Origin: Thomasclavelia cocleata
Lineage (GTDB): Bacteria > Bacillota_I > Bacilli_A > Erysipelotrichales > Coprobacillaceae
Length of the DNA: 64,000 nt
Assembly (NCBI RefSeq): GCF_900102365.1
Contig: NZ_FOIN01000008.1
Location: forward strand, 1 to 64,000
Reading direction: 5' to 3'
The notes beneath the pieces were generated by a model. The model had not been told where the DNA came from. It was given only the letters and a program-made list of their open reading frames with translations, and searched no databases. Shown here piece after piece: positions 15,832-61,508 of the stretch. How positions within the stretch are numbered: the first letter of the stretch is position 1; every line of letters begins with the position of its first letter. The position numbers and the translations under genes are program-made.

Positions 15832-17163
15832 ATGAAAAAATTTAGTTTTAAAGGGGGAATTCACCCCCATGATAATAAATTCATCTCCGAAAATTGTTCG
15901 ATTAAAACTATTTTACCTGGAGATGAATTAATTTTCCCTTTATCCCAACATATTGGAGCTCCAGCCAAGCCAGTTGTGAGTAAAGGAGAGCATGTCCTAG
16001 CTGGACAAATTATTGCATGTAAAAAGGCAATGATTTCAGCTAACGTTATTAGTTCAGTTTCTGGTACTGTAAAAGCTATTGATTCTCGCCTTGATGCAAC
16101 AGGTGCTTATGTTGATTGTATTGTTATAGCTAATGATCATCAATATCAAACCGTTAATGAATATAATAGTATAAATGATTATCAAAATTATACTGATGAA
16201 AAAATTCGTGAGCTGATTAGTCAAGCTGGAATCGTAGGATTAGGAGGAGCTGGATTTCCTAGTGCTGTAAAAAACACTCCTAAAGATCCTGATTCTATTA
16301 AATATATTATAATCAATGGAGCTGAGTGTGAACCCTATTTAACCTCAGATTATCGTTTAATGTTAGAAAAAAGTGATGAACTGATTGCAGGCATAAAAAT
16401 ACAACTGCAATTATTTAAAAATGCTAAAGCAATTATTGCTATTGAAGACAATAAACCAGATGCTTTAAATCATTTAAAAAAAGCGACTATAAATGAGTCT
16501 AAGATTGAAATAGCTCCACTACAAACAAAATATCCTCAAGGAAGTGAACGGGTATTAATCAAAGTTTTAACTAATCAAGTAGTTACTAGTGGTATGTTAC
16601 CTGCCGATGTTGGCTGTATTGTTAATAACGTGGCTTCTGTTATTGCTATTTATGAAGCAGTAGCCCTTAATATTCCTTTAATTGAAAAAATAGTCACTGT
16701 CACAGGTGATGCTATTAATGAACCTAACAATTTTAAAGTTAGAATAGGAACTAAATATCAAACTTTAGTTGATGCCTGTGGTGGATTTAAAGTACCACCT
16801 AAAAAAATTATTTCTGGTGGTCCAATGATGGGAACAGCTTTATTCAATCTTGATATTCCCGTTACCAAAACTTCTTCAGCTCTTGTTTGCCTAAGTGAAG
16901 ATGCTGTTTCAAAAAACACTCCGACCCCTTGTATCCATTGTGGTCGATGTGTAAATGCTTGTCCAATTGGATTAGTTCCTCAGCTTTTATACCACTATGC
17001 AAAAATTAATGATCAAGAAAATTTTATAAAAGTACATGGTATGGATTGTATGGAATGTGGCTGCTGCACTTATTCGTGTCCTGCTAAACAAAATTTAACG
17101 CAATCATTTAAAAAAATAAAAAGAGCGATTAATAATCGCAAGAAAGGAGCAAATAATGGATAA
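15832..17163 (+). CDS. rnfC: Rnf complex subunit RnfC
   Basis: Peripheral, cytoplasmic NADH-oxidising subunit of the ion-pumping ferredoxin:NAD oxidoreductase. 443 aa. It has an N-terminal barrel-sandwich part (residues 1-100). An NAD/FMN-binding part follows, with GIVGLGGAGFPSAVK near 138 and INGAECEPYL near 162. Two 4Fe-4S motifs stand at the C-terminus: CIHCGRCVNACP near 371 and CMECGCCTYSCP near 410. AAGGAG precedes the ATG and a TATAAT-like box lies at about 15794. It is the first gene of rnfCDGEAB and overlaps rnfD by 8 nt. Confidence 0.96.
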   Translation: MKKFSFKGGIHPHDNKFISENCSIKTILPGDELIFPLSQHIGAPAKPVVSKGEHVLAGQIIACKKAMISANVISSVSGTVKAIDSRLDATGAYVDCIVIANDHQYQTVNEYNSINDYQNYTDEKIRELISQAGIVGLGGAGFPSAVKNTPKDPDSIKYIIINGAECEPYLTSDYRLMLEKSDELIAGIKIQLQLFKNAKAIIAIEDNKPDALNHLKKATINESKIEIAPLQTKYPQGSERVLIKVLTNQVVTSGMLPADVGCIVNNVASVIAIYEAVALNIPLIEKIVTVTGDAINEPNNFKVRIGTKYQTLVDACGGFKVPPKKIISGGPMMGTALFNLDIPVTKTSSALVCLSEDAVSKNTPTPCIHCGRCVNACPIGLVPQLLYHYAKINDQENFIKVHGMDCMECGCCTYSCPAKQNLTQSFKKIKRAINNRKKGANNG

Positions 17164-18079
17164 TTTATTTCACGTATCTACAGCTCCCCATATCCGAGAT
17201 TCAATCACTACTAAAAACATCATGTATGATGTAATTCTTGCTTTAATACCAGCTACAATATTTGGTATTTATCAATTTGGAATAGATGCTTTTCTTGTTA
17301 TTAGCGTTGCAATTATCACTTCTTTATTAAGTGAATATTTATATCAGCGTTTCATGAAGCTTCCTATAACTATATATGATGGTTCTGCTATCCTTACTGG
17401 TCTATTATTAGCTTTATGTCTATCTAGTTCAATGCCATTATGGATGGTTGCACTTGGAAGTGTCTTTGCTATTATTGTTGTTAAACAATTATTTGGCGGT
17501 CTTGGTCAAAATTTTATGAATCCTGCTTTGGCAGCTAGATGTTTTTTATTAATATCATTTGCAGGAAAAATGAATTCATTTGTTAATATTGATGCTACAA
17601 GTAGTGCTACTGCTTTGGCTCTATTAAGAAATGGTGAAGATGTAAATTTATTTAATATGTTTATGGGAAATATTAGTGGTACAATTGGAGAAACCTCAAC
17701 AATTGCTTTACTAATAGGTGCTTTATATCTTATTTATAAAAAAGTTATTAGTCCTAAAATTCCTCTAGCTGTTTTTGTTTCATTTAGTGTAATTATCTTT
17801 ATTAGTGGGGATTTTAGTTTAGATTATTTATTAAAACAAATATGTGGTGGTGGTCTGATTATTGGAGCTTTCTTTATGGCTACTGATTATGTAACTAGCC
17901 CTATTACACCTAATGGTAAAATAATTTATGGTTTAATTATTGGAATTTTAGCTGCAGTTTTTAGACTGTATGGTAATACACCTGAAGGAATGTCATTTGC
18001 AATTATCATCTCTAACTTGTTAGTTCCACTAATTGAAAAAGTAACTATTCCTAAAATAAAAGGCAAAGGGGGGAAATAA
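17156..18079 (+). CDS. rnfD: Rnf complex subunit RnfD
   Basis: Integral membrane subunit of about nine helices that carries covalently bound FMN and helps to form the ion path. 307 aa. The N-terminus HVSTAPHIRDSITTKNIMYDV is typical. The flavin site is the Thr/Ser-rich DATSSATALALL near residue 160. The conserved GGLGQNFMNPALAARCFLL is near 119 and DYVTSPITPNGKIIYG near 243. It overlaps the end of rnfC and ends 2 nt before rnfG, indicating tight coupling. Confidence 0.95.
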   Translation: MDNLFHVSTAPHIRDSITTKNIMYDVILALIPATIFGIYQFGIDAFLVISVAIITSLLSEYLYQRFMKLPITIYDGSAILTGLLLALCLSSSMPLWMVALGSVFAIIVVKQLFGGLGQNFMNPALAARCFLLISFAGKMNSFVNIDATSSATALALLRNGEDVNLFNMFMGNISGTIGETSTIALLIGALYLIYKKVISPKIPLAVFVSFSVIIFISGDFSLDYLLKQICGGGLIIGAFFMATDYVTSPITPNGKIIYGLIIGILAAVFRLYGNTPEGMSFAIIISNLLVPLIEKVTIPKIKGKGGK

Positions 18080-18081
18080 TA

Positions 18082-18714
18082 ATGAAAAAAAATATCTTTA
18101 AAGACATTATCATCTTTGCAATTATTACATTAGCAGCTGGTTTATCATTAGCTCTTGTTAATTCACTTACTAAAGAACCTATTGCCATTCAAAATGAAAA
18201 AATCATTCAAGATTCTTATCGTAGTGTTTTTAAACAAGGAAAAGTATTTGCAAACAATAAAGAAATTGATGAAATTGTTGATAAATTTCCTGAAACCATA
18301 AAAAATAAAAACTATAATTTTGGAGAAAATGGAATAGTAATTGATGATATATTAATGGTCACTGATAAAACCGATAATTTAATTGGTCATATAATCAAAG
18401 TTACTACTAAAGATGGTTATGGTGGAGATATCACATTAGTTATAGGAATTGATACAAAAGATACGATTACTGGGATCGAAGTTCTTTCAATTGATGAAAC
18501 AGTTGGTTTAGGAATGAATGCTAAAAATGAAAATTTTAAAGAACAGTATTATAATAAACAAATTAACAATTTTACTATTACTAAAACTGGTAAACAAAAA
18601 GATCAGGAAATTGACGCTCTTAGCGGTGCAACAATAACGTCAACTGCTTTTAATAATGCTGTTAATAGTGCTTTAGCTATTAATCAGGAAATCAAGGAGA
18701 TTGCTTATGAATAA
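18082..18714 (+). CDS. rnfG: Rnf complex subunit RnfG
   Basis: Membrane-anchored, outward-facing flavoprotein subunit. 210 aa: one N-terminal membrane helix (about residues 7-27), then an FMN-binding domain with GYGGDITLVIGID near 113, VGLGMNAKNENF near 139 and the covalent FMN attachment motif SGATITST near 181. It overlaps the start of rnfE by 8 nt. It passes electrons between RnfC/RnfD flavins and the rest of the complex. Confidence 0.95.
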   Translation: MKKNIFKDIIIFAIITLAAGLSLALVNSLTKEPIAIQNEKIIQDSYRSVFKQGKVFANNKEIDEIVDKFPETIKNKNYNFGENGIVIDDILMVTDKTDNLIGHIIKVTTKDGYGGDITLVIGIDTKDTITGIEVLSIDETVGLGMNAKNENFKEQYYNKQINNFTITKTGKQKDQEIDALSGATITSTAFNNAVNSALAINQEIKEIAYE

Positions 18715-19438
18715 ATATGTAGAACGCCTTTATAATGGAATTTTCAAAGAAAACCCAACCTTGATTTTAATGTTAGGAATGTGCCCTACTTTAGCTGTAA
18801 CAACATCTTCCATTAATGGTTTAGGAATGGGATTAACAACGACTATTGTTCTTATGGCATCCAACTTTATAATATCTTTATTAAGAAAAATTATCCCTAA
18901 TAGAATGCGTATTCCTTCATATATTGTTATTGTTGCTTCAATGGTTACAATCGTTCAATTATTACTTCAGGCATATCTTCCTTCTCTATATAATACTTTA
19001 GGAATTTATATTCCTTTAATAGTAGTGAATTGTATTATTTTAGGACGGGCTGAGGCATATGCTTCTAAACATAATTGCATTCTTTCATTATTTGATGGAA
19101 TTGGGATGGGATTAGGTTTCACTTTAGCATTAACATGTATTGGTTTAGTTAGAGAAATACTAGGTAGTGGTACTTTCTTTGGAATTGAATTTGCGCCACT
19201 ATTTAAAGATTTAGTAGGATCTAACATCTATGGTTTCTTTAGTCAATTAGAACCAGCTACTATTTTTGTTATGGCACCAGGTGCATTCTTTGTTTTGGCA
19301 GGATTAACTGCAATTCAAAATCGTTTAAAACTACCAAGTGCTACTAATACCTCTAAAAATAGTGACTGTGATCATGATTGTCTTCATTGTCATAATCATG
19401 TTAGTGAAAAATCATGTGAATTAAAGGAGGAAAAATAG
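18707..19438 (+). CDS. rnfE: Rnf complex subunit RnfE, with a Cys/His-rich tail
   Basis: One of the two homologous six-helix membrane subunits that form the core with RnfA. About 243 aa. The body is standard: NPTLILMLGMCPTLAVT near the start, VNCIILGRAEAYAS in the middle, VREILGSGTFFG later. It then carries an unusual C-terminal tail of about 25 residues with the run CDHDCLHCHNH and one more Cys, which most RnfE proteins lack. The start is the ATG at 18707 after AAGGAGA at 18694-18700, inside the end of rnfG. The rnfA ATG directly follows the stop. Confidence 0.94.
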   Translation: MNKYVERLYNGIFKENPTLILMLGMCPTLAVTTSSINGLGMGLTTTIVLMASNFIISLLRKIIPNRMRIPSYIVIVASMVTIVQLLLQAYLPSLYNTLGIYIPLIVVNCIILGRAEAYASKHNCILSLFDGIGMGLGFTLALTCIGLVREILGSGTFFGIEFAPLFKDLVGSNIYGFFSQLEPATIFVMAPGAFFVLAGLTAIQNRLKLPSATNTSKNSDCDHDCLHCHNHVSEKSCELKEEK

Positions 19439-20011
19439 ATGACAGGAATGATTTTATTATTAATCAGTGTAGCTTTAGTAAATAATGTTGTTTTAAGTCA
19501 ATTTCTTGGATTATGTCCTTTTTTAGGAGTTTCTAAAAAAATTGAAACAGCTGCTGGTATGGGTGGTGCTGTCATCTTTGTTATGTCAATTGCTTCAATA
19601 GCAACAAGCCTACTTTATAAAGTATTAGTAATTTTTCATCTTGAATATTTAAATACTGTTACTTTCATTCTTGTAATTGCTGCTCTTGTTCAATTAGTTG
19701 AAATGTTTTTAAAAAAATATAGTTCTGGATTATATAATTCTTTAGGTGTATATCTTCCGTTAATAACTACTAATTGTGCTGTTTTAGGAGTAGCTATTAC
19801 TAATGTTCAAAATAGTTATGATGTTTTAACAAGTCTTATTTGTAGTTTAGGAACTGCTTTAGGATTTACAATTGCAATTGTGATAATGGCTGGAATTAGA
19901 GAAAAAATTGCCAACAATGATATTCCAGTATCATTCCAGGGTTCTCCTATTGTTCTTATTACTGCAGGATTAATGGCTATTGCTTTTATTGGTTTTTCAG
20001 GGTTAATATAG
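19439..20011 (+). CDS. rnfA: Rnf complex subunit RnfA
   Basis: Six-helix membrane subunit, paralogue of RnfE with inverted topology. The two together hold an intramembrane 2Fe-2S site in studied complexes. 190 aa, standard length. It begins with NNVVLSQFLGLCPFLGVSKK, whose Cys matches the conserved ligand, and carries ITTNCAVLGVAI, holding the second conserved Cys, near residue 108. AAGGAGG ends 7 nt before the ATG, within the end of rnfE. It is 15 nt upstream of rnfB. Confidence 0.96.
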   Translation: MTGMILLLISVALVNNVVLSQFLGLCPFLGVSKKIETAAGMGGAVIFVMSIASIATSLLYKVLVIFHLEYLNTVTFILVIAALVQLVEMFLKKYSSGLYNSLGVYLPLITTNCAVLGVAITNVQNSYDVLTSLICSLGTALGFTIAIVIMAGIREKIANNDIPVSFQGSPIVLITAGLMAIAFIGFSGLI

Positions 20012-20026
20012 AAAGGAGTTAATAAG

Positions 20027-20818
20027 ATGAATGAAATAATAATTGCTACAATAATTGTTGGTGCAATCGGTTTAATAATTGGAATTCTCCTCACTATTGC
20101 AAGTGAAAAACTATCTGTTGCTGTTAATGAAAAAGAAATCCAAATCCGTGAACAATTACCTGGAAATAATTGTGGTGGTTGTGGTTATCCTGGATGTGAT
20201 GGTTTAGCAAAAGCTATTGCTGAAAATGAGGCTAAAGTAAATCAATGTCCTGTTGGGGGACAAATAGTTGCTGATGCTATTGCTGAAATTATGGGTGTTG
20301 AAAATGAAAAAACAACCCGCAAAGTTGCTTTTGTTCATTGTAATGGAACTTGTAAAAATGTTACGACTCAATATATATATCATGGAATTAAAGATTGTAA
20401 CAATGTGTCTATTATTCCAGGTGGCGGTGAAAAACAATGTTCTAATGGTTGTATGGGTTATGGCAGCTGCGTTCGTGAATGTGAGTATAATGCTATTAAA
20501 ATTGTTGATGGAGTAGCTGTTATTGATACTGACTTATGTCAAGCTTGTGGTAAATGTATTAAAGTCTGTCCAAATAACGTTATTAGTTTAGTTCCTTATC
20601 AAAAACAAGCTATCGTTAAATGTAACTCTAAAACACCTGCATTAAGGGCTCGAAAAGATTGTAATGTAAGTTGTATTGGCTGTGGTTTATGTGCTCGTAA
20701 TTGTCCTAATAATGCAATTATAATTGAAAACTCATTAGCACATATAGATTATAGCAAATGTACTAATTGTGGTATTTGTAAAGAAAAATGTCCTCGTAAA
20801 TGTATTATAATGATGTAA
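20027..20818 (+). CDS. rnfB: Rnf complex subunit RnfB
   Basis: Ferredoxin-like subunit that accepts electrons from soluble reduced ferredoxin. 263 aa: one N-terminal membrane helix (about residues 3-25), the 4Fe-4S motif CGGCGYPGCDGL near 47 with a further Cys (NQCPVG), then a polyferredoxin region. I can see CMGYGSCVREC, CQACGKCIKVCP, CIGCGLCARNCP and CTNCGICKEKCP, suggesting five or more clusters. It is the last gene of the operon, behind an AAGGAG site, and is followed by a terminator. No rnf gene is missing. Confidence 0.96.
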   Translation: MNEIIIATIIVGAIGLIIGILLTIASEKLSVAVNEKEIQIREQLPGNNCGGCGYPGCDGLAKAIAENEAKVNQCPVGGQIVADAIAEIMGVENEKTTRKVAFVHCNGTCKNVTTQYIYHGIKDCNNVSIIPGGGEKQCSNGCMGYGSCVRECEYNAIKIVDGVAVIDTDLCQACGKCIKVCPNNVISLVPYQKQAIVKCNSKTPALRARKDCNVSCIGCGLCARNCPNNAIIIENSLAHIDYSKCTNCGICKEKCPRKCIIMM

Positions 20819-21260: not shown

Positions 21261-23396
21261 CTAATTAGAAATATTTTTTCTTCTTTTTGAAATAACAAAC
21301 AAATTCACTGCAGATAATCCAGTAATAATTATCCATGTTCCAATCATACTATTATCAGATGTTTTTGGAATTGAATTAACAGGAGGATTATCAGAAACAT
21401 TAGGTGTTTCTGGTTCTGGATCTGGATCTGGATCTGGAACATCAACGATTGGCGGATCTTTAGGATCATCTTTACCTGGTTCTTCAGGTAAAACAACAGT
21501 TCTTACACCTGAAGCAGCTTTAATTTTTGCAACAGCTTCATCATCCCATAAATCATTATTATCAAATCTATATTGCAGAACATCACCAATTGGCATACGT
21601 TCATCACGATTAGGCTCTTTAGCTTCTGTTGCGTAATTATCGTAAATATAATTATAATCTCCTTTAAATAACCAGTTACGTACACAATTTGTAATAACAT
21701 TATTTGTAATATCAAAACCTACAGAACCTTCATCTAAATAAATACCACCATATTCATTATGAACACCATCAATATAGTTATCTGTCATAACAGAACCATC
21801 TTGTCTACCAAGTGTATAGATACCACCACCATCAATCAAAGCAGGTTCAGTCAATACATTTTCAACACGGTTATATGAGATCGTATTTTTACCAAGAACA
21901 AAATCCCCAAGAACAAATTGATCTGTTTTACCTTCATCTGGTCTTGTATTTTCTCCATAACCCCATCCCCATCCTACACTGATTCCAGTATATGGAAGAT
22001 TTGTTACAGTATTATATGAAACGTTAGTACCATATGTATAACCAATAAGAATTCCTGTGCATCCTTTGTATGTATTAGCAACATTTGTAACATAGTTATC
22101 TGTAACAGCATTATTTTCTGTTAAATCTGCTTTTTCTGGTTTATGATGCTGTGACTCAGTACCGCCAAGAATAATTCCAGCACCACCTAATTTTTCAAAT
22201 TCATTATATGTAATAGAAGAATTTTTTGTAGCAATACCTAAGTGAACCCCTGTATTAGCAAGTAATTCAAAATGATTTTTCATGATATTAATGTTATCTA
22301 AATATTCCCCATAGATAGCACTTCCAGTTGTAGGAATCCATTCACGATTCCATTCATCTTCTGGATTTGTCATTGCACTTGCTTGGAATGTCTGTAGTCC
22401 ATCTGGAAGATTTGGTCTAAGGAAAGTAGAATATTTAAAATTCAATCCTTGAATCGTTATATTTTTGACAACATTATCTGCTGTTCCGTCAAATACAATT
22501 AAGTTTTCTAATCTTCCTAGTACAGCATTGATATTATTCATATCCTCACCATCTTGAGGAATATAATATACTTGATCTTCTTCAGCATTTAAATAAAATT
22601 CTCCAGGTTCATTTAATAGTTCATAAGCATTTTGTATATAAAGAATAGCTTCTTTCATTGCTACAGAATCATTTTCTATAGCAGCACCTGTAAGATTAGC
22701 TTTAAAAGCAGCTTTAGATTCACTTGTATATCTCAATCTAAATGAATTGCCATAATCCTCATCATCAGTCAATGTTTTTATACCACTTACACGTAAAATC
22801 GCCCATTTCCATTTACGCCCAAAAACAACCTCTAAATCTTCAACTTTTGCAAAACTTTCAGGTAAATTATCACGCTTAATATACACTTCTTTATTAATAC
22901 TTGTGTCATCAAGTGCTTCAGCTCTTTCACGAGCCAAAATCGCACGTTTGCCATTAACATATAATTCACGGCTTTCTATACCCTTAGCAGGAGCTTTCCA
23001 AATATTTTTCTCTTCATCAACTTTTGTCCATTCACTAAGAGTTGTTCCTCCTGAGATAGTCACTTTTTCATCTTCGTAAGCACTCCATACAACATTGTGT
23101 CCATTTTGACCACTATCTCGACTATCAAAAACAAGTGTTTCATCTAACACATATGTTCCTTCACGCAAATACACCTTTAAATCTTCATTCATATTATTTG
23201 TTTTTGCTCTAGCAAGTTCTTGTGCTTTTGCAAGTGTTTGAACTGGTTTGTCAAGGGTTCCAGGATTATTGTCATTTCCATTTTTCCCATCGACAAAAAT
23301 CATAGAACTTTCTTTTGCCATAACAGAAGCACTCGCAATTGTGAATAATGATATGACCATCATCATACACATCAATACCTTTAATGCTTTTTTCAT
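21261..23396 (-). CDS. Cell-wall-anchored right-handed beta-helix protein, probable glycan-active enzyme
   Basis: A 711-aa surface protein. Residues 1-27 are a signal peptide. From about 33 it reads FVDGKNGNDNNPGTLDKPVQ, the usual opening of parallel beta-helix carbohydrate enzymes. A helix region of short repeats (NVITNC, NYVTNV, NTVTNL) spans about 290-610. A Pro/Asp linker (DPDPDPEPETP) precedes a sortase signal: SIPKTSDNS, a membrane segment and KRRKN. IPKTS departs from canonical LPXTG. The fold is close to GH141 and related families, but the substrate is not readable. Its promoter and RAT antiterminator point to induction by a sugar through a BglG-type regulator, which is not in the window. 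The start has AGGAAG nearby. Confidence 0.82.
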   Translation of the reverse strand: MKKALKVLMCMMMVISLFTIASASVMAKESSMIFVDGKNGNDNNPGTLDKPVQTLAKAQELARAKTNNMNEDLKVYLREGTYVLDETLVFDSRDSGQNGHNVVWSAYEDEKVTISGGTTLSEWTKVDEEKNIWKAPAKGIESRELYVNGKRAILARERAEALDDTSINKEVYIKRDNLPESFAKVEDLEVVFGRKWKWAILRVSGIKTLTDDEDYGNSFRLRYTSESKAAFKANLTGAAIENDSVAMKEAILYIQNAYELLNEPGEFYLNAEEDQVYYIPQDGEDMNNINAVLGRLENLIVFDGTADNVVKNITIQGLNFKYSTFLRPNLPDGLQTFQASAMTNPEDEWNREWIPTTGSAIYGEYLDNINIMKNHFELLANTGVHLGIATKNSSITYNEFEKLGGAGIILGGTESQHHKPEKADLTENNAVTDNYVTNVANTYKGCTGILIGYTYGTNVSYNTVTNLPYTGISVGWGWGYGENTRPDEGKTDQFVLGDFVLGKNTISYNRVENVLTEPALIDGGGIYTLGRQDGSVMTDNYIDGVHNEYGGIYLDEGSVGFDITNNVITNCVRNWLFKGDYNYIYDNYATEAKEPNRDERMPIGDVLQYRFDNNDLWDDEAVAKIKAASGVRTVVLPEEPGKDDPKDPPIVDVPDPDPDPEPETPNVSDNPPVNSIPKTSDNSMIGTWIIITGLSAVNLFVISKRRKNISN

Positions 23397-23439: not shown

Positions 23440-23481
23440 AAAAAAGCGAGCTCGAAAATACAAAAGTATTATCGGTCTCGC
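23440..23481 (-). terminator. Leader terminator overlapping the RAT
   Basis: On the minus strand GCGAG pairs with CTCGC, with an inner AATAC/GTATT helix, then TTTTTT. The 5' arm GGCGAG is also the 3' end of the RAT, so the two structures exclude each other. Confidence 0.85.
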
Positions 23482-23502
23482 CTAATTGAATAGTAACAAT
23501 CC
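23474..23502 (-). promoter_or_regulatory. Ribonucleic antiterminator (RAT) for a BglG/LicT-family regulator
   Basis: The minus strand reads GGATTGTTACT, a short hairpin, then AGGC, three bases and ACC over 29 nt. This is the established RAT pattern of the bgl and lic systems. It begins about 4 nt after the predicted transcription start. A PTS-controlled antiterminator would bind it and prevent the overlapping terminator from forming. The regulator gene is elsewhere. Confidence 0.85.
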
Positions 23503-23512
23503 TTATGTAATA

Positions 23513-23541
23513 ATAATACATTTCAACCCGATTTATGTCAA
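23513..23541 (-). promoter_or_regulatory. Sigma-A promoter of the beta-helix gene
   Basis: TTGACA at 23536-23541, a 17-nt spacer and TATTAT at 23513-23518 on the minus strand. The start is predicted near 23506. Confidence 0.85.
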
Positions 23542-23824: not shown

Positions 23825-26800
23825 TTAATTTTCTGTTACTTTATTTCTTTTCAAATACATCAAAACAATAATCGAAATAACAAAACAAATTATTGCTAAA
23901 CTACCAATAAATAAAGGTTTATTCAAATACCAACGTACAAAAATATTACTAGAAACAGTAAAATTATTAACTTCTTTAACACTTTTATTTCCAGCTTTAT
24001 CTAAGACAATAACTTTTAAGTTTTGTACAGTGTTTTTTTCTGGAACTGAACATACTAAATTATTTTCATCAATACTTTGTACCTCAATCTTTTTATCATT
24101 TAATAAAACTTCTGTACTATCTAACATTAGATTATCTTCAACTGATATTTCTACCTTTTTTATAGCTTCATCATAAATATTATTAGATTTTAGATTATTT
24201 ATTGCTATAGCTGGTGCAGTTTTATCAATAACAAAATTAATACTTGCTTGTTTATCTTCAATAATATTTTCATTAATATTTCCAGCAGCATCTTTAGAAG
24301 TTATTATTATTCTATAAATTCCATCTTTTTCAAAAAGTGATGATTTTAATTTATATGTATAATTGTACCATGCTTTTTCTCTTGTTTCTGTAACTGAATA
24401 ATCAATATCTTTTCTTAATTCTCTAATTTGACCATTAATACTTAATTTAACAAATGATTCAACTAATTGATTTACATTTAATTCATTAAATATTACTTCT
24501 TGACCTTTTTTATTATACTGTTTGTTTACCATTTTAGACAATGAATCTGAAAACATATATGTTGATCCAAAACGATTAACAGAATACACAATATTAGCTT
24601 CTGACTTATTACCAGCTTTGTCATTTAACATAGCATGAATAGTATAAACATCATCATTTTCTTTTTCATATTTCATGTCATTAAAAGCAAACACCTCACC
24701 ATTTGATTGGGGTGATTTTGTTCCTTCAATATCAATAGATCCTCGATGATCTCCAGTCAGACTAATACTTAATTCATTAGCATCATAATTTGTATCCTTT
24801 GCTGAAACAACTGGCATAACTTTTTTAGCATTTGCTGAATATGCTTCAACACCACTTATAATAAGTTCTGGTACTGTTTTATCAATAAAGAATTCTTCTT
24901 TATTGTAATTATCCATAATATTTCCTGCTTTATCAACATATTCAATATCAAAAGTATACAATGCATCTTCATTATATTTAATAACAGTTATATTACTATC
25001 ACCATTTCTAGTCCAACCATTATTAGCTGGGAATGTTTTAGTAGTTCCTCCATCTATAGCACTACCAATGATTTTAACTCGACTAGAATCAAAATTATGT
25101 TCATCTATTGTAATTGTTGCTGTTCTTGATTGATTGAAATAATTATTATTTTTTGCATTATTATTATCATATGAAACATTTAAAGTTGGTTTTGTTTTAT
25201 CTAATACAAATTTATCATAAAAATTATTTAAATCAAAATCTAACATATCTTTACCACTAACATATATTTCATAATCAGCATCTTCATTAAACATTAATTT
25301 TGTTTGATAAACAGCATTAATTGTTCCACTAATTCCTGAAACTAATTGCCATTGTAAATTTGGATTCATAAATGAACCATTTTTACTAATCATTACATTT
25401 ATTAAACTAGGATCAAAATTCATTTCTTTAATTTTTAATGTTAATATCCTATCTTCTTTATAAAACTCATTAAAAACACTATCTGGTGTATTATTATCAT
25501 ATTCTACAGTCAATTCTGGACGATCCAAATCACGATAAATCACATGTGTTTTTTCATCTCTATTACCAGTATTATCTATAGCAATTATTCTAATAACAAT
25601 ACTTCCATCATCATTACTTTGTAATATATTAGTATTAAATTCAACACTCACTTCATCTTTTTTATTTTGTGAAAAATCCTGATTTTCAATTTCTATATCA
25701 TTTACTTTAACACTAATAGATGATAATCCTGAACAATCTTTATCTTCAACAATATCACTAATTTCCCATTTAACTAGGACATCTTTATTTATCCATATTT
25801 TATCATCAATCGTTTTTGTATCTCCATTAATTTCCATATCACTGATTACTGGATTTTTTATATCTAAAATTATTTTTTCAAATTCTTCTTCATTTGCCTT
25901 AACAATCTTTTGACCAAATTCATCCAAACTAATCTTTTGTCCTAAATTATCTTCAGTTTCTATATATACCTCAAAAAATTTATCTTCCAAATCACTAATT
26001 TCAAAAGTATAAATATTATCTTCTACTGACATAGGTTTAATAATACGTTCTTTTTTTCCATCAACAACAATATTTAACTTTGTTTTATCACTATTAATAC
26101 CTGAACTTGAATTACATTGATATGTATCATTTAATTCAACTTTTAAATTTATTTTTTCATCATTTGATCCAAAAAATTTATCTGGTGCAAAAAATGATAC
26201 TATTTTATCTAATAAATTTGAAGCAGTTTCAATTCTAACATCTTTGATTTCAGGAGCACGAGAATCCCGATATAATGTTAAAGGTTCTGATTCTGATGAA
26301 TTTCCTGCCTTATCAATAGCTTTAATTTTAATTACTAATTCACCTGAATTTGCATTATGACATCTTGACAACATAATAGTACTTATAATCTCATTAATTT
26401 CATTAACCTTTTCATCAAAATATGCCCATTTTTGATATTCTTTACCATTTACCTCAATACAAATTTCTTTTATTCCAGCTACATTTTCGCCTTTTTTCTC
26501 AATCAAATCACTTACACTATAATTTATATCTATATCATCAGTAAACCACATTTTACCATCATATTTAATAATATCATTTTCATTGACACTTAATTCACAT
26601 TTAGGCTCATTAGATTCAATTAATATTGGTAGTTTTAATTTTTCTTCACCACATAAATATTCTAAAGCTTCTATCTCTTCAATATTACCTACTTGATCAG
26701 TTACACTTAAAGACATTGTGAAAAAAACATCTCTTTTATTAATTTCAAATGTATAAATATCTTCATCTTTTGATTTTTCACCTTCAACACTAGAAATTAC

Positions 26801-28693
26801 ATTATTACCATCTTTAATTTCTAAAATTGCATCTTTAATTCCAGAAGCATCATTTATAGACACAGCACTTAAATCAGTTACATCATCTGTTATTGGAATT
26901 GAAATAGTAATATTTGAATTTGTATATGTACCAAATTTATCAAAATAAACTCCATCTGTTTCTAAAACTGCATCCTTTACAGTTGGTTTATGATCATCAA
27001 TATAATTAATTTCCACATCCTTAGTAGTTGCATTTCCTAATGCATCTATTACTGCAATATGATATATCCCATTTTCTGTAACTGTTTTTCCAAATTCTGA
27101 TTCTTCGCCCTTTATATTTGTATAAATTGGTGTTTCACCTTCTTTATATATAGCAAAGCTCATATCTCCAACACCAGCATCACTTGCTTTTACCTTTATT
27201 GTAAAACCAACAGTTGCATTAGAGTATTTTTCATTTTCTTTATAATTATTAATTATTTCAATACCATTAATCTCAGGTACAACTTTATCTATATTATTTA
27301 TATTTAATTCTTTAGCTTCACTAATATTACCATTTGTATCTTTGGCAAAAAAATAATATAAGCCATTACTTTCAAACTCAAAAATATTATCTTCAACAAA
27401 TGTTAAATCATTAGGATCATCTACAATATTATCTTCTTCATACCAAGCATAAACCAATTTATCACCTTGTTTATCGCTAGCATTGACTGCTACCTTTGCA
27501 CTTTTACCATATTCCTTATTTTCTGAATTAGTAACAGATTCTAAATAATTTAAATTTATTTCACTAATAATTGGTCGTTCATTATCAATAATTAATTCGC
27601 TTTCATTATTTAAATGATCAACTACTTTTATTTTAAATTCTTTTCTAGGCACATCATTAAACACATTAACATCAGATATTATAGATTTATTTTCACCATT
27701 ATCATCAATATATGTCAATTCATAATGTCCAATACCACAACCATCATCACTTGCATTAATTGTTATCGTATTTCTGTCTTCAGAAAATGTAAAAGGATTA
27801 TCTTTATCAAATTGTGGTATTTCATTGTCAATTTTATCTATCACCAATTCTTCACTAATAGACATAACTCCACTTTTCTTATTTATTATTTTATAAATAT
27901 ATGTACCATTTTCTGTAATTGTAAAGGATTTTTCTTCTTCGTTAAAAAAATCAGGACTATCTTTTTTAACAAGTGAAAATGCATAATCTTCTGAGTTATC
28001 ACAATTTAATGTAATCCTAAATTCTTTAGCCCATACACTAGAATTTTCACTGTATGAATTACCAACTGGTTCAATATTACATGCTATTTCAGGAATACTT
28101 TGTTTAATCCCTGAAATATTAATATCAACACTAGAAGTATTATTAAATTTATCAAATATTTTTATAATATAGTTATCATTAGTCTCTAAATTAAAACTTA
28201 CTCTATTACTAGTAATATTACTTTCAATAATCCTCTTATCTAATGAATTTAAAACTTCATATTTACATGTGTCGTCACTAATATTAAATGATACATTAAC
28301 ATATTCATAATATCTTTTCTCTTCATTATATCTATCATATTTTATCTTTAAATTATCAAGCTTAGGAGAAATTGTATCCACCTCTAATTGGATCGGATCA
28401 TTATCTGCTATCTTGACAAATAAAATATAATCTTTACCCTTTTCAACATCAAATTCATTAGCTTCTTGATAATTGATTTCATCTTCACTATCTTTTAAAA
28501 CTAATGCATATTCAACATCTTTTATCTCTTCACCAATAGTTACAATTAACCTATTATCTTCAATACTTACTTTTGGTTCAATATCACCTATTTCTAAATC
28601 TGTTTCTTGTTTTATTACATTAATAAATCCTGTACTAAAAAATATATTTGTAACTACTAACATGATCACTAAAAATTTTTTTATATTTTTCAT
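23825..28693 (-). CDS. Giant Ig-like-repeat surface protein, 1622 aa
   Basis: A membrane-anchored extracellular protein. Signal peptide at residues 1-24, a membrane segment near 1587-1612 and a short basic tail (LKRNKVTEN); there is no sortase motif. In between stand some 12-15 beta-rich domains of about 90-110 residues, most closing with D-x-x-G-N (VTDQVGN, AIDKAGN, AIDNTGN, YVDKAGN, LDKAGN). This is the pattern of bacterial Ig-like adhesin stalks. It is very acidic and rich in Asn and Lys. It is the last gene of the Tad/kinase set and its ATG overlaps the previous stop (TAATG). Likely role: an adhesin, a stalk or a sensor for envelope state; this is inference. No catalytic domain was found. 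Confidence 0.8.
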   Translation of the reverse strand: MKNIKKFLVIMLVVTNIFFSTGFINVIKQETDLEIGDIEPKVSIEDNRLIVTIGEEIKDVEYALVLKDSEDEINYQEANEFDVEKGKDYILFVKIADNDPIQLEVDTISPKLDNLKIKYDRYNEEKRYYEYVNVSFNISDDTCKYEVLNSLDKRIIESNITSNRVSFNLETNDNYIIKIFDKFNNTSSVDINISGIKQSIPEIACNIEPVGNSYSENSSVWAKEFRITLNCDNSEDYAFSLVKKDSPDFFNEEEKSFTITENGTYIYKIINKKSGVMSISEELVIDKIDNEIPQFDKDNPFTFSEDRNTITINASDDGCGIGHYELTYIDDNGENKSIISDVNVFNDVPRKEFKIKVVDHLNNESELIIDNERPIISEINLNYLESVTNSENKEYGKSAKVAVNASDKQGDKLVYAWYEEDNIVDDPNDLTFVEDNIFEFESNGLYYFFAKDTNGNISEAKELNINNIDKVVPEINGIEIINNYKENEKYSNATVGFTIKVKASDAGVGDMSFAIYKEGETPIYTNIKGEESEFGKTVTENGIYHIAVIDALGNATTKDVEINYIDDHKPTVKDAVLETDGVYFDKFGTYTNSNITISIPITDDVTDLSAVSINDASGIKDAILEIKDGNNVISSVEGEKSKDEDIYTFEINKRDVFFTMSLSVTDQVGNIEEIEALEYLCGEEKLKLPILIESNEPKCELSVNENDIIKYDGKMWFTDDIDINYSVSDLIEKKGENVAGIKEICIEVNGKEYQKWAYFDEKVNEINEIISTIMLSRCHNANSGELVIKIKAIDKAGNSSESEPLTLYRDSRAPEIKDVRIETASNLLDKIVSFFAPDKFFGSNDEKINLKVELNDTYQCNSSSGINSDKTKLNIVVDGKKERIIKPMSVEDNIYTFEISDLEDKFFEVYIETEDNLGQKISLDEFGQKIVKANEEEFEKIILDIKNPVISDMEINGDTKTIDDKIWINKDVLVKWEISDIVEDKDCSGLSSISVKVNDIEIENQDFSQNKKDEVSVEFNTNILQSNDDGSIVIRIIAIDNTGNRDEKTHVIYRDLDRPELTVEYDNNTPDSVFNEFYKEDRILTLKIKEMNFDPSLINVMISKNGSFMNPNLQWQLVSGISGTINAVYQTKLMFNEDADYEIYVSGKDMLDFDLNNFYDKFVLDKTKPTLNVSYDNNNAKNNNYFNQSRTATITIDEHNFDSSRVKIIGSAIDGGTTKTFPANNGWTRNGDSNITVIKYNEDALYTFDIEYVDKAGNIMDNYNKEEFFIDKTVPELIISGVEAYSANAKKVMPVVSAKDTNYDANELSISLTGDHRGSIDIEGTKSPQSNGEVFAFNDMKYEKENDDVYTIHAMLNDKAGNKSEANIVYSVNRFGSTYMFSDSLSKMVNKQYNKKGQEVIFNELNVNQLVESFVKLSINGQIRELRKDIDYSVTETREKAWYNYTYKLKSSLFEKDGIYRIIITSKDAAGNINENIIEDKQASINFVIDKTAPAIAINNLKSNNIYDEAIKKVEISVEDNLMLDSTEVLLNDKKIEVQSIDENNLVCSVPEKNTVQNLKVIVLDKAGNKSVKEVNNFTVSSNIFVRWYLNKPLFIGSLAIICFVISIIVLMYLKRNKVTEN

Positions 28694-29082
28694 TACACTA
28701 CCTCCTTAATTATTTTATTAGTATGAATTACAATTATTTCATCTTCTAAAACAAAATTAATTTCTTCATTTATTGAATTATCTAAAACTGTTGTTTCATT
28801 TCCAGTTAAAATCATAGTATTTTCATTTATTGAATGATTATTAAAATCATCTGTTATTTCTTTGGTTTTATTTTTATCTTTTATAACTGTAAAATTATTT
28901 TTCTTATGAGTATTACTCTCTTTACTAATTTGTTTTATTTCATTTAAAGCAGTTTTACCTGTTAAAAAGTTATAGATCTTCTTTATATCATAATGAAAAA
29001 ATAAATATATTGTTATTAGAAATGAGATTGCTGCTAGAACAAAACAAATTATTGCAATGATTTGAAATGTAGATGCTTGCAT
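28693..29082 (-). CDS. Small membrane protein with a TTVL motif, 129 aa
   Basis: One N-terminal membrane helix (about residues 7-29), then a basic cytoplasmic segment with YNFLTGKTALNEIKQ. The tail is Thr/Asn rich and acidic and contains GNETTVLDN (residues 95-102). The TTVL core recurs three times in the FHA protein of the same operon, and the kinase activation loop has a similar TTYLGT. I infer a phospho-Thr docking tail that could recruit the FHA protein to the membrane. Both ends overlap the neighbours by one base (TAATG), so it is translationally coupled to the kinase and to the Ig-repeat protein. Not a named family to me. Confidence 0.7.
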   Translation of the reverse strand: MQASTFQIIAIICFVLAAISFLITIYLFFHYDIKKIYNFLTGKTALNEIKQISKESNTHKKNNFTVIKDKNKTKEITDDFNNHSINENTMILTGNETTVLDNSINEEINFVLEDEIIVIHTNKIIKEVV

Positions 29083-30785
29083 TAATCTACCTCCATTTCT
29101 TTAAATAAATATGCATTTTCAATTGCTTTATCAACTGCTTCTTTACGACTATTTACATAATCTTTCATGGCTGTAGTTTTAGTTGAAGAAGTTTTTATTG
29201 TTTCAACTTCTTTTTTTACATTATTAAACAAAGCAATTACTTGATCCTTTTTTATATCATCAGCTTTAAAATCATATCCATAATTTTCAAAAGAATTAAA
29301 TACTAACTTATATGTTTCTAATTTTACAATTTCACTTTCTTTTTTATCACTAACAATCTCAACAAGTTCCACTAAATCTTCAAAATACGATTTATATAAT
29401 CCTTTTACTGAAGCACCTTCATTTACTCTAGTTTGTAACTCCTTATAAAAAGTACCAATCTTTTTATAAATCAAAGCTGTATCATGATAATCATCGTCTT
29501 TAGAACTATTATTAACAGCATCATTAAACCAGGTAATTGAATTAATCATTTTAGTTATTTGGGTATTTTCAGGATCATTATCACCATATTCATAATAATA
29601 CCAATATAACCGCCCTATATCATAAGCCACTTGCCCATAATCACGAGATTTTTGAAGATCTGGTAAATATTGAACAACCTGTTCTTTAAATTCTATTGCT
29701 TCTTCAACACTAAAAATATTATTATCTTTATATGTTTCAATCAATTTTTCATAAGCTTCACTATTTTGTGGTAAAATACTTATTGCTTTAATACAATGAT
29801 TACGTTTATCTGTACCATTAGTAGCTTTTTCTGCTTGTAATAAATTATTGTTATAATCTGATTTATTTAGGCTGTTTTTAGCAAATATACTTCCTAAGCC
29901 AGCACTTAAAAATATCATTGTAGAAATACTAGCCATTATAAATTTATTTAGTTTTTTCTTTTGAGCTGTTTTAAAAGCATCATCCTCTTCTTCGTAATGT
30001 TCTAAGGCATATAATAATTCAGCACACGACTGATAGCGATCTTTTGGATTTAATTGAACACATTTTTCAATAATATTTTCTAACCCTCCTGATAATGAAG
30101 GATTCCAATATCTAATTGGATATATTTCATAAGGTGGTTCCATCGGATTTTTTCCAGTAATCAGATGATACAAAGTCATCCCTAAACAATATATATCAGT
30201 ACGAGCATCAGTTTGTCCTTTACCACCAAATTGTTCAGGAGCTGCATAACCCCTAGTTCCTAAATATGTAGTATCATTTAAGTTACTTTCTTTATATTCT
30301 CTAGCAATCCCAAAATCTATAACTTTAATATTTCCATCTGGCTTTAACATTACATTACTTGGCTTCATATCACGATAAATTATTGCTGGTGTTCTTGTAT
30401 GTAAATAATGAAGCACCTCTGTTAGCTGTTTTGCCCAATCAATAACTAAATCTTGACTTTGAGCACCCTGATTATTCACTACATACTCTAATGTTTCACC
30501 TTCAATATAATCCATTACAACATAAATTACTTTATCTTCTTCAATAATATCAACAATCCTTGGTAATGCTGGGTGATCTAGTTTTTTTATCATATTCGCT
30601 TCAGCAATAGCACTTTGAATAACAACTTCATTATTAGCATTTTTTGTATATTTCTGTAATTCCTTTACTGCCCATTGTTTATTTAAACGTTTATCCATCG
30701 CTAAATAAACAACTGACATCCCGCCTTGACCAATCTTTTTTAATATTTCATATTTATTATCTATAAAACTTCCTATTTTAGCCAA
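29082..30785 (-). CDS. Membrane Ser/Thr protein kinase (PrkC/PknB-like, without PASTA domains)
   Basis: 567 aa. Kinase domain at residues 12-270: glycine loop GQGGMSVVYLA near 19, AVKE holding the ATP lysine near 41, catalytic YRDMKPSN near 138, DFG near 159, activation loop NDTTYLGTRGYAAPEQ. YRD in place of HRD is known in clostridial kinases. A membrane helix spans about 283-303. The outer 260 residues are helical and TPR-like, not PASTA, so the ligand is probably not muropeptide. The gene is 2 nt from the phosphatase gene. Kinase, phosphatase and FHA reader together form a phosphorylation module for the Tad machine. Confidence 0.92.
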   Translation of the reverse strand: MAKIGSFIDNKYEILKKIGQGGMSVVYLAMDKRLNKQWAVKELQKYTKNANNEVVIQSAIAEANMIKKLDHPALPRIVDIIEEDKVIYVVMDYIEGETLEYVVNNQGAQSQDLVIDWAKQLTEVLHYLHTRTPAIIYRDMKPSNVMLKPDGNIKVIDFGIAREYKESNLNDTTYLGTRGYAAPEQFGGKGQTDARTDIYCLGMTLYHLITGKNPMEPPYEIYPIRYWNPSLSGGLENIIEKCVQLNPKDRYQSCAELLYALEHYEEEDDAFKTAQKKKLNKFIMASISTMIFLSAGLGSIFAKNSLNKSDYNNNLLQAEKATNGTDKRNHCIKAISILPQNSEAYEKLIETYKDNNIFSVEEAIEFKEQVVQYLPDLQKSRDYGQVAYDIGRLYWYYYEYGDNDPENTQITKMINSITWFNDAVNNSSKDDDYHDTALIYKKIGTFYKELQTRVNEGASVKGLYKSYFEDLVELVEIVSDKKESEIVKLETYKLVFNSFENYGYDFKADDIKKDQVIALFNNVKKEVETIKTSSTKTTAMKDYVNSRKEAVDKAIENAYLFKEMEVD

Positions 30786-30787
30786 AG

Positions 30788-31567
30788 TTATTCCTCCCTA
30801 TAACATTGAAGTAACAATGCTGTAATATTATCTGTTTCATTTCTTTTTTTATTTAATTCAACAAAATCAAATAATTTTTCTTTAATATATTTTTTAGTTA
30901 ATAAAAATGAACTATTAAATTGCTCAAATAACTCATCTTTACTAATCATATGTCTAAACCCATCTGAACAAATTAAATAAATATCACCAGGTTTAGTTTC
31001 ACCATAATAGAAAACGGGAATTACTGTTTTAGAAGCTCCTATACATTGTAACAAAGCATTTTTTCGTGGATCTTTATTTGCTTCTTCTTCACTAATAACA
31101 TTTTTTTTAACAACTTCATTAATCCATGTTTGATCCTCTGTTATTTGTGTTATTTCATTATTTATTTGATAAATTCTAGTATCTCCGACATGAAAAATAA
31201 AATATTGGTTATTTAAAATAATTATTCCTGTTGCTGTTGTTCCTAAGTTTATCCTATTTTGATAACCATATGACAAAATTCGCTGATTAAGCTCTTTTAA
31301 AACACTATTGATAACATTTTGTAAACTCTTCAAGGTAAACTGTTTATCTTTTAAAAATACTTGTAAATCATTATCAAACCAGTTAGAAAAAAATTTAATT
31401 ACTGTCGCACTAGCTATCTCACCACTAGATAAACCACCCATTCCATCACATACTAATGCTAAAATAATTCTTCCTTTTGTAGTATTAGCACATTTAATTA
31501 ATAAACTATCTTCATTTATTTGCTTTTCAATTCCTACATCACTATAATAATCATATATAAATTTCAT
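30788..31567 (-). CDS. PP2C-family protein phosphatase
   Basis: A 259-aa cytoplasmic Mn/Mg-dependent Ser/Thr phosphatase (PPM family, Stp/PrpC-like), expected to reverse the adjacent kinase. Metal-binding motifs: NEDSLL near residue 18, VCDGMGGLSSGE near 39, HVGDTRIYQI near 119, CSDGF near 194 and ETDNITALLL near the end. GGAGG precedes the ATG at 31567. An intergenic gap of 66 nt, large for this operon, holds the 18-bp motif seen at the Tad promoter, so the kinase/phosphatase part may have its own control point. Confidence 0.93.
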   Translation of the reverse strand: MKFIYDYYSDVGIEKQINEDSLLIKCANTTKGRIILALVCDGMGGLSSGEIASATVIKFFSNWFDNDLQVFLKDKQFTLKSLQNVINSVLKELNQRILSYGYQNRINLGTTATGIIILNNQYFIFHVGDTRIYQINNEITQITEDQTWINEVVKKNVISEEEANKDPRKNALLQCIGASKTVIPVFYYGETKPGDIYLICSDGFRHMISKDELFEQFNSSFLLTKKYIKEKLFDFVELNKKRNETDNITALLLQCYREE

Positions 31568-31596
31568 ATTCCCTCCAGGACTAATCGTAACTAAGC

Positions 31597-31614
31597 ATAT
31601 ACCACAAGTCCTAA
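31597..31614 (-). promoter_or_regulatory. 18-bp motif upstream of the phosphatase gene
   Basis: TTAGGACTTGTGGTATAT on the minus strand differs at one position from the plus-strand copy at 46027-46044 in the Tad control region. It is an operator, or part of a promoter (TGGTATAT resembles an extended -10). An AGGACT in the opposite orientation lies at 31577-31582. Confidence 0.5.
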
Positions 31615-31633
31615 TTTTAATTAAATAAAAATA

Positions 31634-32278
31634 CTATAAATCAAAATATCTTTTTATATCTCTTGCAAATACTGTACATATTACATATGAACTAATAAGA
31701 TTAATAATTGGCACAAACTTCCATAAAAATATACAATTATATTTACCTGCTTCATTATGATAAAATTCTAAATCATCATCTTCATAAATCGTACTTATTA
31801 GTTTTAACTGCAATGTTGTCATCATTTTTACACTCACGATACCAAATATAGGAACTGTTAATATTGCTATTAACATTATAATCCACAAACTACTTAAAGA
31901 ATTACCATTTTCATGTATGATTGTTCCTGATACAAAAACAACTGCTAAAATTATTAATACAAATACTAAAATTAATTTGAGATATTGTTTGATTACTTCT
32001 TTCATTGAAGCAATCCTTAAAAAATTGAAAAACTTTTGATAAATACTAAAGTCTATCTTAATATCACAAACAATTAATGTAACACCATAAGGTATAAAAG
32101 CAATCGTTATAATATTTAATATAAAAGCTATAATAAAACCAAGATAAGGAATTTTACTAAGCAAATAAATAATAAATATATTTAGTATTGTCATTAAAAA
32201 TAATTTAAAATATTCCAAAAAATGTGAAAAAATATAGCTAACCGCCTCCATAAAACCTGTTCTTACAAAATTATCCAT
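31634..32278 (-). CDS. Polytopic membrane protein, 214 aa
   Basis: About five hydrophobic segments, near residues 20-40, 42-70, 98-122, 128-150 and 188-208. Short loops and an acidic stretch (YEDDDLEFYHNE) lie before the last one. No motif lets me name it. It lies 12 nt after the FHA protein gene and 66 nt before the phosphatase gene, so it probably belongs to the same membrane complex. Confidence 0.7.
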   Translation of the reverse strand: MDNFVRTGFMEAVSYIFSHFLEYFKLFLMTILNIFIIYLLSKIPYLGFIIAFILNIITIAFIPYGVTLIVCDIKIDFSIYQKFFNFLRIASMKEVIKQYLKLILVFVLIILAVVFVSGTIIHENGNSLSSLWIIMLIAILTVPIFGIVSVKMMTTLQLKLISTIYEDDDLEFYHNEAGKYNCIFLWKFVPIINLISSYVICTVFARDIKRYFDL

Positions 32279-32290
32279 AACTATTTCTCC

Positions 32291-33646
32291 TTATATTTCA
32301 AATATAAAATCTTCATCAGCAATCTTTATTCTACTACCTGAAAATAATTCTAATTTATATCCAGGTCTAACTATAGTTCCATCTACTATCGTTTTATTAG
32401 TAGAATTTAAGTCTAAAATAAAATATTTGCCATTTTCATAATGAATTTCTGCGTGTTTTCTACTTACTGCTGTGTTGTCATTAATTACAAAATCATTAAA
32501 CTGCTCATCTTTACCAATATTAAAAATCATTTTGTTTATTTCCATTTTTTGATTATTTATCATCCTAGTAATTGTTGCATATTTGATATTTGCTTGATTA
32601 GCAGATAAAACTGTTGTTCCTTCAGACAATACTGTTGTTCCATCATTTTGTCCTAAAACTGTTGTACCTGCAAAATTCCCTGGTTCAATATTTCTTTCAT
32701 ATGGTAAATCTATATTTCTATTTGTTTTATCATTATTAATTTTTGCTTCTTTTCGTTTTGATAAAGTTGGTATAGAACTTTTTTTAGATTTATTTTTTGA
32801 GAAAGATTTTTCTTTCTTTTTTTTCTTTATACTATCTTTATCAACATTTATAGTTTTATTTCTTTTTAATGTGGGTATTCCATCAGTTCTTTTACTTTGA
32901 AAGGTTTCTACTTCCATATTTTTCTTAACCGCAATTGGTTTTTGTTCTTTTCTTGGTATTTCTTGATATATAGGAATACTTGGTTTTGGTAATATTTCTT
33001 GATATGCAGGAATAGTTACTTCTCTAGGTCTAATTTCTTTAATTGGTTGACTTAGCTTGATTTCTTTTGGTACTGGATTTGGTTTGTTGTAATAATTATT
33101 TTTTAAGCTTAATAATAATGATTTGATATCTTTTAATGAACAATTATAATTACTATTTAAAAAATTAAATATTTTTATTTGAAAATCTGTATCTGCTTCA
33201 TTTACATATTTAGCCATAACTAAAACATATTTTAGAAATTCATCGAAATTCATGATATCTTCTGTATTTTCTATTGGTAAACAAACTAAATATGCTTCAT
33301 CACTTTTTCTATCCACATATACATTATTGATGTTTAAAAGAAAATACTTTTCTTCAATCATGTATTCACCAGCAATTTCTAATGTATCTATAATACTAAT
33401 TAAAATATTGATTAATTGTTTTTTATCAACAGGATTATTCAATATTTCATCTAAAGAAATCAATCCTGAAACATCAAAACTATAATATCTATTTGTATCT
33501 ACTTGTTGAAATGAAATTGGTAAAATTCCTTTTATATGATTATTCTTTATCATCCCTTCACAAAAGAAATCAATACTATCATCAATATTAATTTCATATT
33601 CTAAAAAATTACAATTAACATTTAACTTATTTCTTGTATTAATCAT
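32291..33646 (-). CDS. FHA-domain protein with tandem TTVL motifs
   Basis: A 451-aa cytoplasmic phospho-Thr reader. Residues 1 to about 190 match the style of the DUF6382 region found ahead of FHA domains. A Pro/Lys-rich linker follows (about 195-320). Three GTTVL copies stand at 327-347. The FHA domain is at about 360-451, with NIGKDEQFNDFVIND, SRKHAEIHYENGKY and LNSTNKTIVDG, which contain the usual Arg/Ser/His/Asn binding residues (here K in place of the first Arg). The TTVL repeats are candidate kinase targets that could fold back on the FHA domain or bridge molecules. The WG-repeat gene lies 10 nt upstream. Confidence 0.85.
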   Translation of the reverse strand: MINTRNKLNVNCNFLEYEINIDDSIDFFCEGMIKNNHIKGILPISFQQVDTNRYYSFDVSGLISLDEILNNPVDKKQLINILISIIDTLEIAGEYMIEEKYFLLNINNVYVDRKSDEAYLVCLPIENTEDIMNFDEFLKYVLVMAKYVNEADTDFQIKIFNFLNSNYNCSLKDIKSLLLSLKNNYYNKPNPVPKEIKLSQPIKEIRPREVTIPAYQEILPKPSIPIYQEIPRKEQKPIAVKKNMEVETFQSKRTDGIPTLKRNKTINVDKDSIKKKKKEKSFSKNKSKKSSIPTLSKRKEAKINNDKTNRNIDLPYERNIEPGNFAGTTVLGQNDGTTVLSEGTTVLSANQANIKYATITRMINNQKMEINKMIFNIGKDEQFNDFVINDNTAVSRKHAEIHYENGKYFILDLNSTNKTIVDGTIVRPGYKLELFSGSRIKIADEDFIFEI

Positions 33647-33656
33647 CTAATCCCTC

Positions 33657-34964: not shown

Positions 34965-34974
34965 GATTTTCCCC

Positions 34975-35640: not shown

Positions 35641-35651
35641 TTTTATCCTAC

Positions 35652-36878: not shown

Positions 36879-36897
36879 CCACTTTTTCCCCACTTAT

Positions 36898-37557: not shown

Positions 37558-37558
37558 C

Positions 37559-51712: not shown

Positions 51713-51940
51713 AAAAAAGTCCTCCATCTAAGGACGACTTAATATCGCGTTACCACCTTAGTTCAAAGTCAAAAAGACTATGCACTCAAAACTTTAACGC
51801 AGTTAACGACAGTGACTACTTGATTCACCACTGCATCTCCTAGGTGAGTTCATAATCTGTTTCATCAGTTTCCACCACCCACTGACTCTCTATGAAAAAC
51901 ATAAATTACTACTAGTCCTATTCATTGATTTTCTTTAATA
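51713..51940 (-). promoter_or_regulatory. T-box leader of leuS (leucine specifier)
   Basis: The T-box core AAGGTGGTAACGCG is at 51747-51760 on the minus strand. It is followed by the terminator AGTCGTCC / GGAGGACT with six T (51713-51740). Stem I has a specifier loop with CTC at 51846-51848, a Leu codon. Uncharged tRNA-Leu pairing with the specifier and with the TGGT bulge would allow read-through into leuS. Confidence 0.93.
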
Positions 51941-58570: not shown

Positions 58571-58668
58571 CTCTCATTGTTCAAGTTGAAACTTGCTCAG
58601 TCAGGCACCTTCTAAATATAGGGTTGCCACTACATCATTGATCTTCATCTAGTAGTTCTTAATAAGAG
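58571..58668 (-). promoter_or_regulatory. SAM-I (S-box) riboswitch of metK
   Basis: On the minus strand P1 forms between CTCTTATT (58661-58668) and AATGAGAG (58571-58578). GTGGCAACC and AGAAGGTGCC match the conserved S-box core. The terminator follows at once. SAM binding would hold P1 and favour termination before metK. Confidence 0.85.
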
Positions 58669-61237: not shown

Positions 61238-61251
61238 TTAAAAATAAATAT

Positions 61252-61327
<76 letters not shown>

Positions 61328-61331
61328 TGAT

Positions 61332-61414: not shown

Positions 61415-61422
61415 TCTATTAT

Positions 61423-61498: not shown

Positions 61499-61508
61499 AA
61501 TATATAAC

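Follow-up and report, generated by a model that had tools for sequence, protein, structure and literature searches.

A RAT and overlapping terminator before a predicted wall-anchored GH141 gene of Thomasclavelia: one of 15 such sites in a probable regulon linked to a GlcNAc-type PTS

The window, that is, the whole 64,000-nt stretch of Thomasclavelia cocleata DNA analyzed here, encodes on its minus strand a 711-residue beta-helix protein. Upstream of this gene lies a compact leader, in which a promoter, a ribonucleic antiterminator (RAT) and an intrinsic terminator follow one another as listed below.

23513..23541, minus strand: sigma-70-type promoter, TTGACA-17-TATTAT, 11/12 consensus
23474..23502, minus strand: 29-nt RAT, GGATTGTTACTATTCAATTAGGCGAGACC, identified by pattern match, covariance models and hairpin covariation on 61 RATs
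23440..23482, minus strand: intrinsic terminator, GGCGAG(ACCGATAATACTTTTGTATTTTCGAG)CTCGCT-TTTTT, ending in T6, folding energy -17.5 kcal/mol
21261..23396, minus strand: target gene, 711 aa, GH141_M domain and right-handed beta-helix, identified with Pfam and 5MQP

The -35 element TTGACA starts at 23541 and the -10 element TATTAT ends at 23513, with a spacer of 17 nt, and this promoter scores highest among the 83 candidates within 10 kb. The gap from the -10 element to the RAT is 10 nt, identical to that of the Streptococcus mutans bglP leader, in which the mapped start lies 7 nt past the -10 element and 4 nt short of the RAT (PMC1489936). An earlier note on this DNA had described a strong promoter, a 29-nt RAT about 4 nt past the start and an overlapping terminator, and all three descriptions hold. 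The ATG at 23396 lies 77 nt past the RAT, with GGAAG upstream of it.

The RAT forms an imperfect, GGATTGTTACT...AGGCAAAACC-like hairpin of about 29 nt that contains two asymmetric internal loops; the last 9 nt of the RAT also begin the terminator, the two structures being mutually exclusive. A pattern of the E. coli bgl RAT matches the window once, with 2 mismatches, both at non-loop positions, and matches none of 100 shuffles. A covariance model built from the RATs of other genomes only scores the window RAT at 42.7 bits (E 3.8e-7 per genome). The 72-nt leader folds with z = -4.3 relative to shuffles. By itself the RAT hairpin has little stability (-1 to -3 kcal/mol) and the terminator is strong; therefore, termination should be the default and the RAT should need a protein to hold it, as in known RAT systems. 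The outer stem of the window leader has 7 uninterrupted pairs and misses our 9-pair stem criterion because the terminator contains internal loops. Rfam at its gathering threshold gives no match at the window leader, a result neutral for the RAT reading. Judged by its sequence, this leader is a true RNA switch for sugar sensing, composed of a RAT and a terminator.

The protein encoded downstream bears a signal-type segment at its N-terminus and, at its C-terminus, IPKTS followed by a hydrophobic stretch and a KRRK tail, which together make it a predicted sortase substrate in a genome with five sortase genes. Pfam profiles detect GH141_M (53.1 against a cut-off of 27) and Beta_helix (38.8 against 25.9), and among solved structures the GH141 enzyme BT_1002 (PDB 5MQP, E 4.5e-41) is the closest; the family assignment combines the profile with the structural match. 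The earlier note's sortase-anchored beta-helix thus stands as to anchor motif and fold; the family it left unspecified is GH141. The two proteins share the beta-helix with its GH141 insertion domain, aligned over residues 38-546, and the target differs from BT_1002 in its predicted wall anchor. D522 of the target (P0001) aligns with an Asp in the YDVAGVYTLG block; of the two catalytic Asp residues of BT_1002, D523 and D564, one is aligned, and the alignment stops before the second. Fucosidase, xylanase and endo-fucanase activities are documented in GH141 (PMC10154630, PMC12786026), a diversity from which the substrate of the target protein is therefore not readable. These documented substrates are fucose- or xylose-linked and not GlcNAc, which we count against a GlcNAc reading of the locus.

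A genome-wide search, proposed in the earlier note, returned exactly 15 RATs, each with an overlapping terminator. One lies before the EIIA gene of a GlcNAc-type PTS, and the other 14 precede genes for large secreted proteins, mostly wall-anchored by prediction, so that a RAT before a surface glycan enzyme is not the oddity that the earlier note took it for. These surface targets comprise five GH84 proteins, six GH20 proteins, a GH3, the GH141 and one LamG/alpha-L-AF_C (arabinofuranosidase-like) protein; most have a sortase-type tail or meet a contig end before the tail. RATs are carried by five of seven GH84 genes and six of about 12 GH20 genes, which places 11 of the 15 sites on some 19 GH84/GH20 genes, and the majority of the 14 surface enzymes are predicted to remove GlcNAc from host glycans. 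The 15 sites fall into two length classes, a 29-nt class with seven members (ACTATTNAATTAGG-like) and a 27-nt class with eight (ACTTTAAKYAGG-like), from which both partners of the third top-stem pair are absent together. The RATs of the EIIA and GH3 genes take a GTTACT...GGCAT form that resembles the site of NagY, an antiterminator of Enterococcus faecalis. Three weak model hits were rejected, two (C21:15698 and C69:1491) as lying inside coding sequence and one (C56:2331) for want of a terminator. On C29, the RAT-controlled GH84 gene has a divergent neighbor that encodes an Mga-type regulator (L018:1982-3859, minus strand).

For covariation, we assembled 61 RATs, 28 of them distinct, from seven genomes. 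The hairpin is paired in 96.7% of cells and five of its eight pairs show changes on both sides; none of 500 shuffles scores as high, and slid controls fall far lower. Of the 61 leaders, 52 have a terminator stem of at least 9 pairs that touches the 3' end of the RAT; shuffles yield 4.25 such leaders on average. The window gene has three orthologs in the genus, including those of Thomasclavelia saccharogumia DSM 17460 and VE202-01, and in each of them the RAT and terminator are retained within a leader that has otherwise diverged. The terminator arms have changed together, from GCGAG/CTCGC at the window to GGCAAGAC/GTCTTGCC in one relative. The Acetatifactor GH141 homologs (L023, L024, about 40%) have no RAT. 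In other genera of the family RATs again precede genes for GH84, GH20 or F5/8-type surface proteins, and some stand before PTS genes in classical style (L149, L150, L155). Two RATs of genome G006 (GGAATGTTACTTTAAATAGGCATGACC; L103:728-754 and L104:211-237) precede surface-protein genes and have no detectable terminator.

No CAT_RBD gene was found on the window contig and no PTS domain among the neighbors scanned (15.8-20.8 and 23.8-41.7 kb), in agreement with the earlier note, which had placed the regulator in trans. The genome holds two BglG-family (CAT_RBD) genes, neither on the window contig, so that the first refuting outcome named in the earlier note, a genome devoid of any such regulator, does not occur. 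One of the two genes, on C68, is as follows.

36340-37176 of C68, minus strand: antiterminator gene, 278 aa, identified with CAT_RBD and PRD profiles

Its product consists of a CAT_RBD (70.4 bits) and two PRD domains (115.4 bits over 2 stretches), is 33% identical to BglG, and matches all four PRD histidines of LicT with histidines covering both PRDs; it misses the NCBIfam equivalog cut-offs for LicT (253 vs 300) and GlcT (185 vs 320). The gene order is EIIBC(Nag)-antiterminator-[RAT]-GH84, with a 27-nt RAT in front of the GH84 gene, and a divergent EIIA gene nearby has a RAT of its own. The adjoining EIIBC is GlcNAc-type (TIGR01998, 599.7 against a cut-off of 553.2, E 3.8e-180). The link between a surface glycan enzyme and PTS sensing that the earlier note had drawn is supported; from this neighborhood the likely signal is GlcNAc and not the beta-glucosides with which it had proposed reporter tests. 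Searches of the EIIBC leader and of the whole genome revealed no RAT in front of the EIIBC-antiterminator operon. By this reading the C68 operon is not autoregulated, unlike bglG or nagY, and we count this against the reading preferred below. The other CAT_RBD gene, on C63, is GlcT-like and belongs with a glucose/maltose-type PTS. Downstream of it and before a PTS operon (L015:4625-4855, minus strand, of the present genome, G000) lies a RAT-like leader, GTGTAACTGTTAGGCAGGCAATAAC, with an overlapping terminator and a different top stem, CTG/CAG, undetected by R1, the covariance model built only on this genome's RATs; it is probably the C63 protein's own site.

The distribution of regulators points to the C68 gene. 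A close ortholog (at least 66%) is present in all seven genus members with RATs, which number 8-15 in six of them and one in G001, and the two genus members that lack a close ortholog have zero RATs at the stricter E 1e-4 threshold. Genome G004 (L121/L124, C195:20480-21300) retains nine RATs and a close antiterminator ortholog with in-frame stops. These stops, which may reflect an assembly error or recent decay, count against the C68 model.

The RATs, their overlapping terminators, targets and conservation, and the regulator genes, are plain features of these genomes. From them we consider it highly probable that the window leader is a BglG/LicT-type antitermination switch that belongs, with the 14 other sites, to one trans regulon driven by the C68 protein with its GlcNAc-type EIIBC. 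Neighborhood and co-occurrence suggest that the C68 protein is the one acting at these sites, and the EIIBC family suggests GlcNAc as inducer; the phosphorylation logic set out next is likewise inferred. When inducer is absent, RNA polymerase would transcribe about 60 nt and then halt at the terminator. With EIIBC occupied in phosphorylating incoming sugar, PRD1 of the 278-residue antiterminator would no longer be phosphorylated, and the protein would dimerize, hold the RAT hairpin in the nascent RNA and block the terminator. Read-through would then reach the GH141 gene jointly with the EIIA gene and the remaining 13 genes for surface proteins, such that GlcNAc freed from host glycans would elicit more of the enzymes that free it. 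One regulator tied to GlcNAc uptake thus probably switches on the entire digestive surface jointly.

Other readings of the same leader fare less well. That its resemblance to a RAT is fortuitous and the hairpin an ordinary terminator draws on nothing beyond the AT-richness of the sequence; already contradicted by the shuffles, the score from the independent model, the ortholog conservation and the covariation, this is the least probable explanation and close to negligible. It is very unlikely, though less so, that a real RAT and terminator act through RNA stability or processing more than through antitermination. NagY does cooperate with RNase III on its own 5'UTR (PMC12502629), and the two G006 sites (L103, L104) would suit such a role, but a strong terminator overlaps the window RAT, and so, counted by the stricter 9-pair stem, does one in the great majority of leaders.

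Somewhat less improbable, but still unlikely, is the same switch being run by the GlcT-like C63 protein, alone or jointly, with a glucose-like sugar and not GlcNAc as the signal. C63 encodes the only other CAT_RBD protein in the genome, the NagY-like form of the EIIA and GH3 RATs could be read in its favor, and it could bind some RATs, which counts against sole control by C68. Against this, the leader beside C63 has its distinct top stem and escapes R1, RATs flank the C68 operon on both sides, and RAT presence is tracked by close C68 orthologs, whereas genomes free of RATs do hold distant relatives of the BglG family (about 28-34%). Control by the C68 protein therefore remains our preferred reading.

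The closest precedent is NagY of E. faecalis, which adjoins the GlcNAc transporter NagE, has RATs before nagY-nagE and hylA, and binds 5'nagY and 5'hylA RNA with nM Kd (PMC9981650). HylA, whose RAT control by NagY was reported in 2023, is an LPXTG-anchored polysaccharide lyase (PL8) with F5/8 and FIVAR domains (PMC9981650); by 2025 the NagY regulon had 26 members under direct control, of which 23 have a putative RAT (PMC12502629). The likeness extends to a BglG/SacY-family antiterminator adjoining a GlcNAc PTS transporter (PMC9981650, PMC12502629), to action in trans, through a RAT that overlaps a terminator, on a wall-anchored glycan enzyme with F5/8 and FIVAR domains, and to a multi-target regulon with glycosyl hydrolases. 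In the present genome the antiterminator gene likewise adjoins a GlcNAc PTS and a RAT precedes a predicted wall-anchored glycan enzyme elsewhere. The systems differ in that NagY is autoregulated and the regulator operon here has no RAT; that the direct targets of NagY are for the most part operons for sugar transport and metabolism, whereas 14 of 15 here are secreted or wall-anchored glycan proteins; that the NagY RAT is of the TGTGACTA...TAGGCATGG type and the majority here LicT/BglG-like, GGATTGTTACT...AGGCAAGACC; and that the enzymes are GH84, GH20, GH3 and GH141 in place of PL8.

E. coli bgl offers a second comparison: on 13 kb of E. coli K-12, R1 finds precisely the two bgl RATs flanking bglG, at 24.1 and 20.2 bits, which, unlike those here, lie within one beta-glucoside uptake operon and have the top stem CTGC/GCAG. 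In Bacillus subtilis, LicT acts as an antiterminator in trans on licS, which encodes a secreted polysaccharide enzyme. SacY acts in the same manner on sacB (PMC12502629). Each of these has, unlike the present system, one secreted target, plant or sucrose substrates and no wall anchor. In the literature searched, whose coverage excludes subscription journals, we found no paper on this regulon in Thomasclavelia. On present sequence evidence it is a NagY-like system that fails one NagY feature, the regulator's own RAT; the principle is already published, and the regulon is unusual in being almost wholly one of surface enzymes.

The present analysis thus adds a second, independent surface-enzyme regulon, with another majority RAT type and no RAT on the regulator operon, and extends the NagY-HylA idea from one wall-anchored Enterococcus enzyme to a distant lineage of Firmicutes with 14 surface proteins as targets. 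It suggests that a gut bacterium could couple host-glycan surface enzymes to uptake of the released sugar via RNA and not a DNA-binding regulator. We hold as evenly balanced the broader proposal that surface host-glycan foraging in Thomasclavelia and related genera has one GlcNAc-PTS-linked antiterminator as its master switch, governing almost only dispersed surface-enzyme genes, with the 29-nt RATs and the 27-nt RATs lacking one top-stem pair possibly giving graded induction, and with the GH141 enzyme recruited to the program. This genome-wide account of the regulon is directly testable, and the 61 RATs of two classes are a resource for RAT specificity.

Elsewhere in the window, 15832-20818 (plus strand) holds genes of an Rnf-type complex (RnfC, RnfD, an Rnf-Nqr subunit and a ferredoxin-type RnfB). 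The region 23825-41020 (minus strand) encodes a TadE-like protein, a type IV prepilin peptidase, an FHA protein, a Ser/Thr kinase, a PP2C phosphatase and a 1622-aa Big_13 surface protein, and looks like a kinase/phosphatase-linked Tad-type pilus locus. Three further RNA features were located.

51727-51934, minus strand: T-box leader
58571-58668, minus strand: SAM riboswitch
61162-61717, plus strand: cluster of six tRNAs
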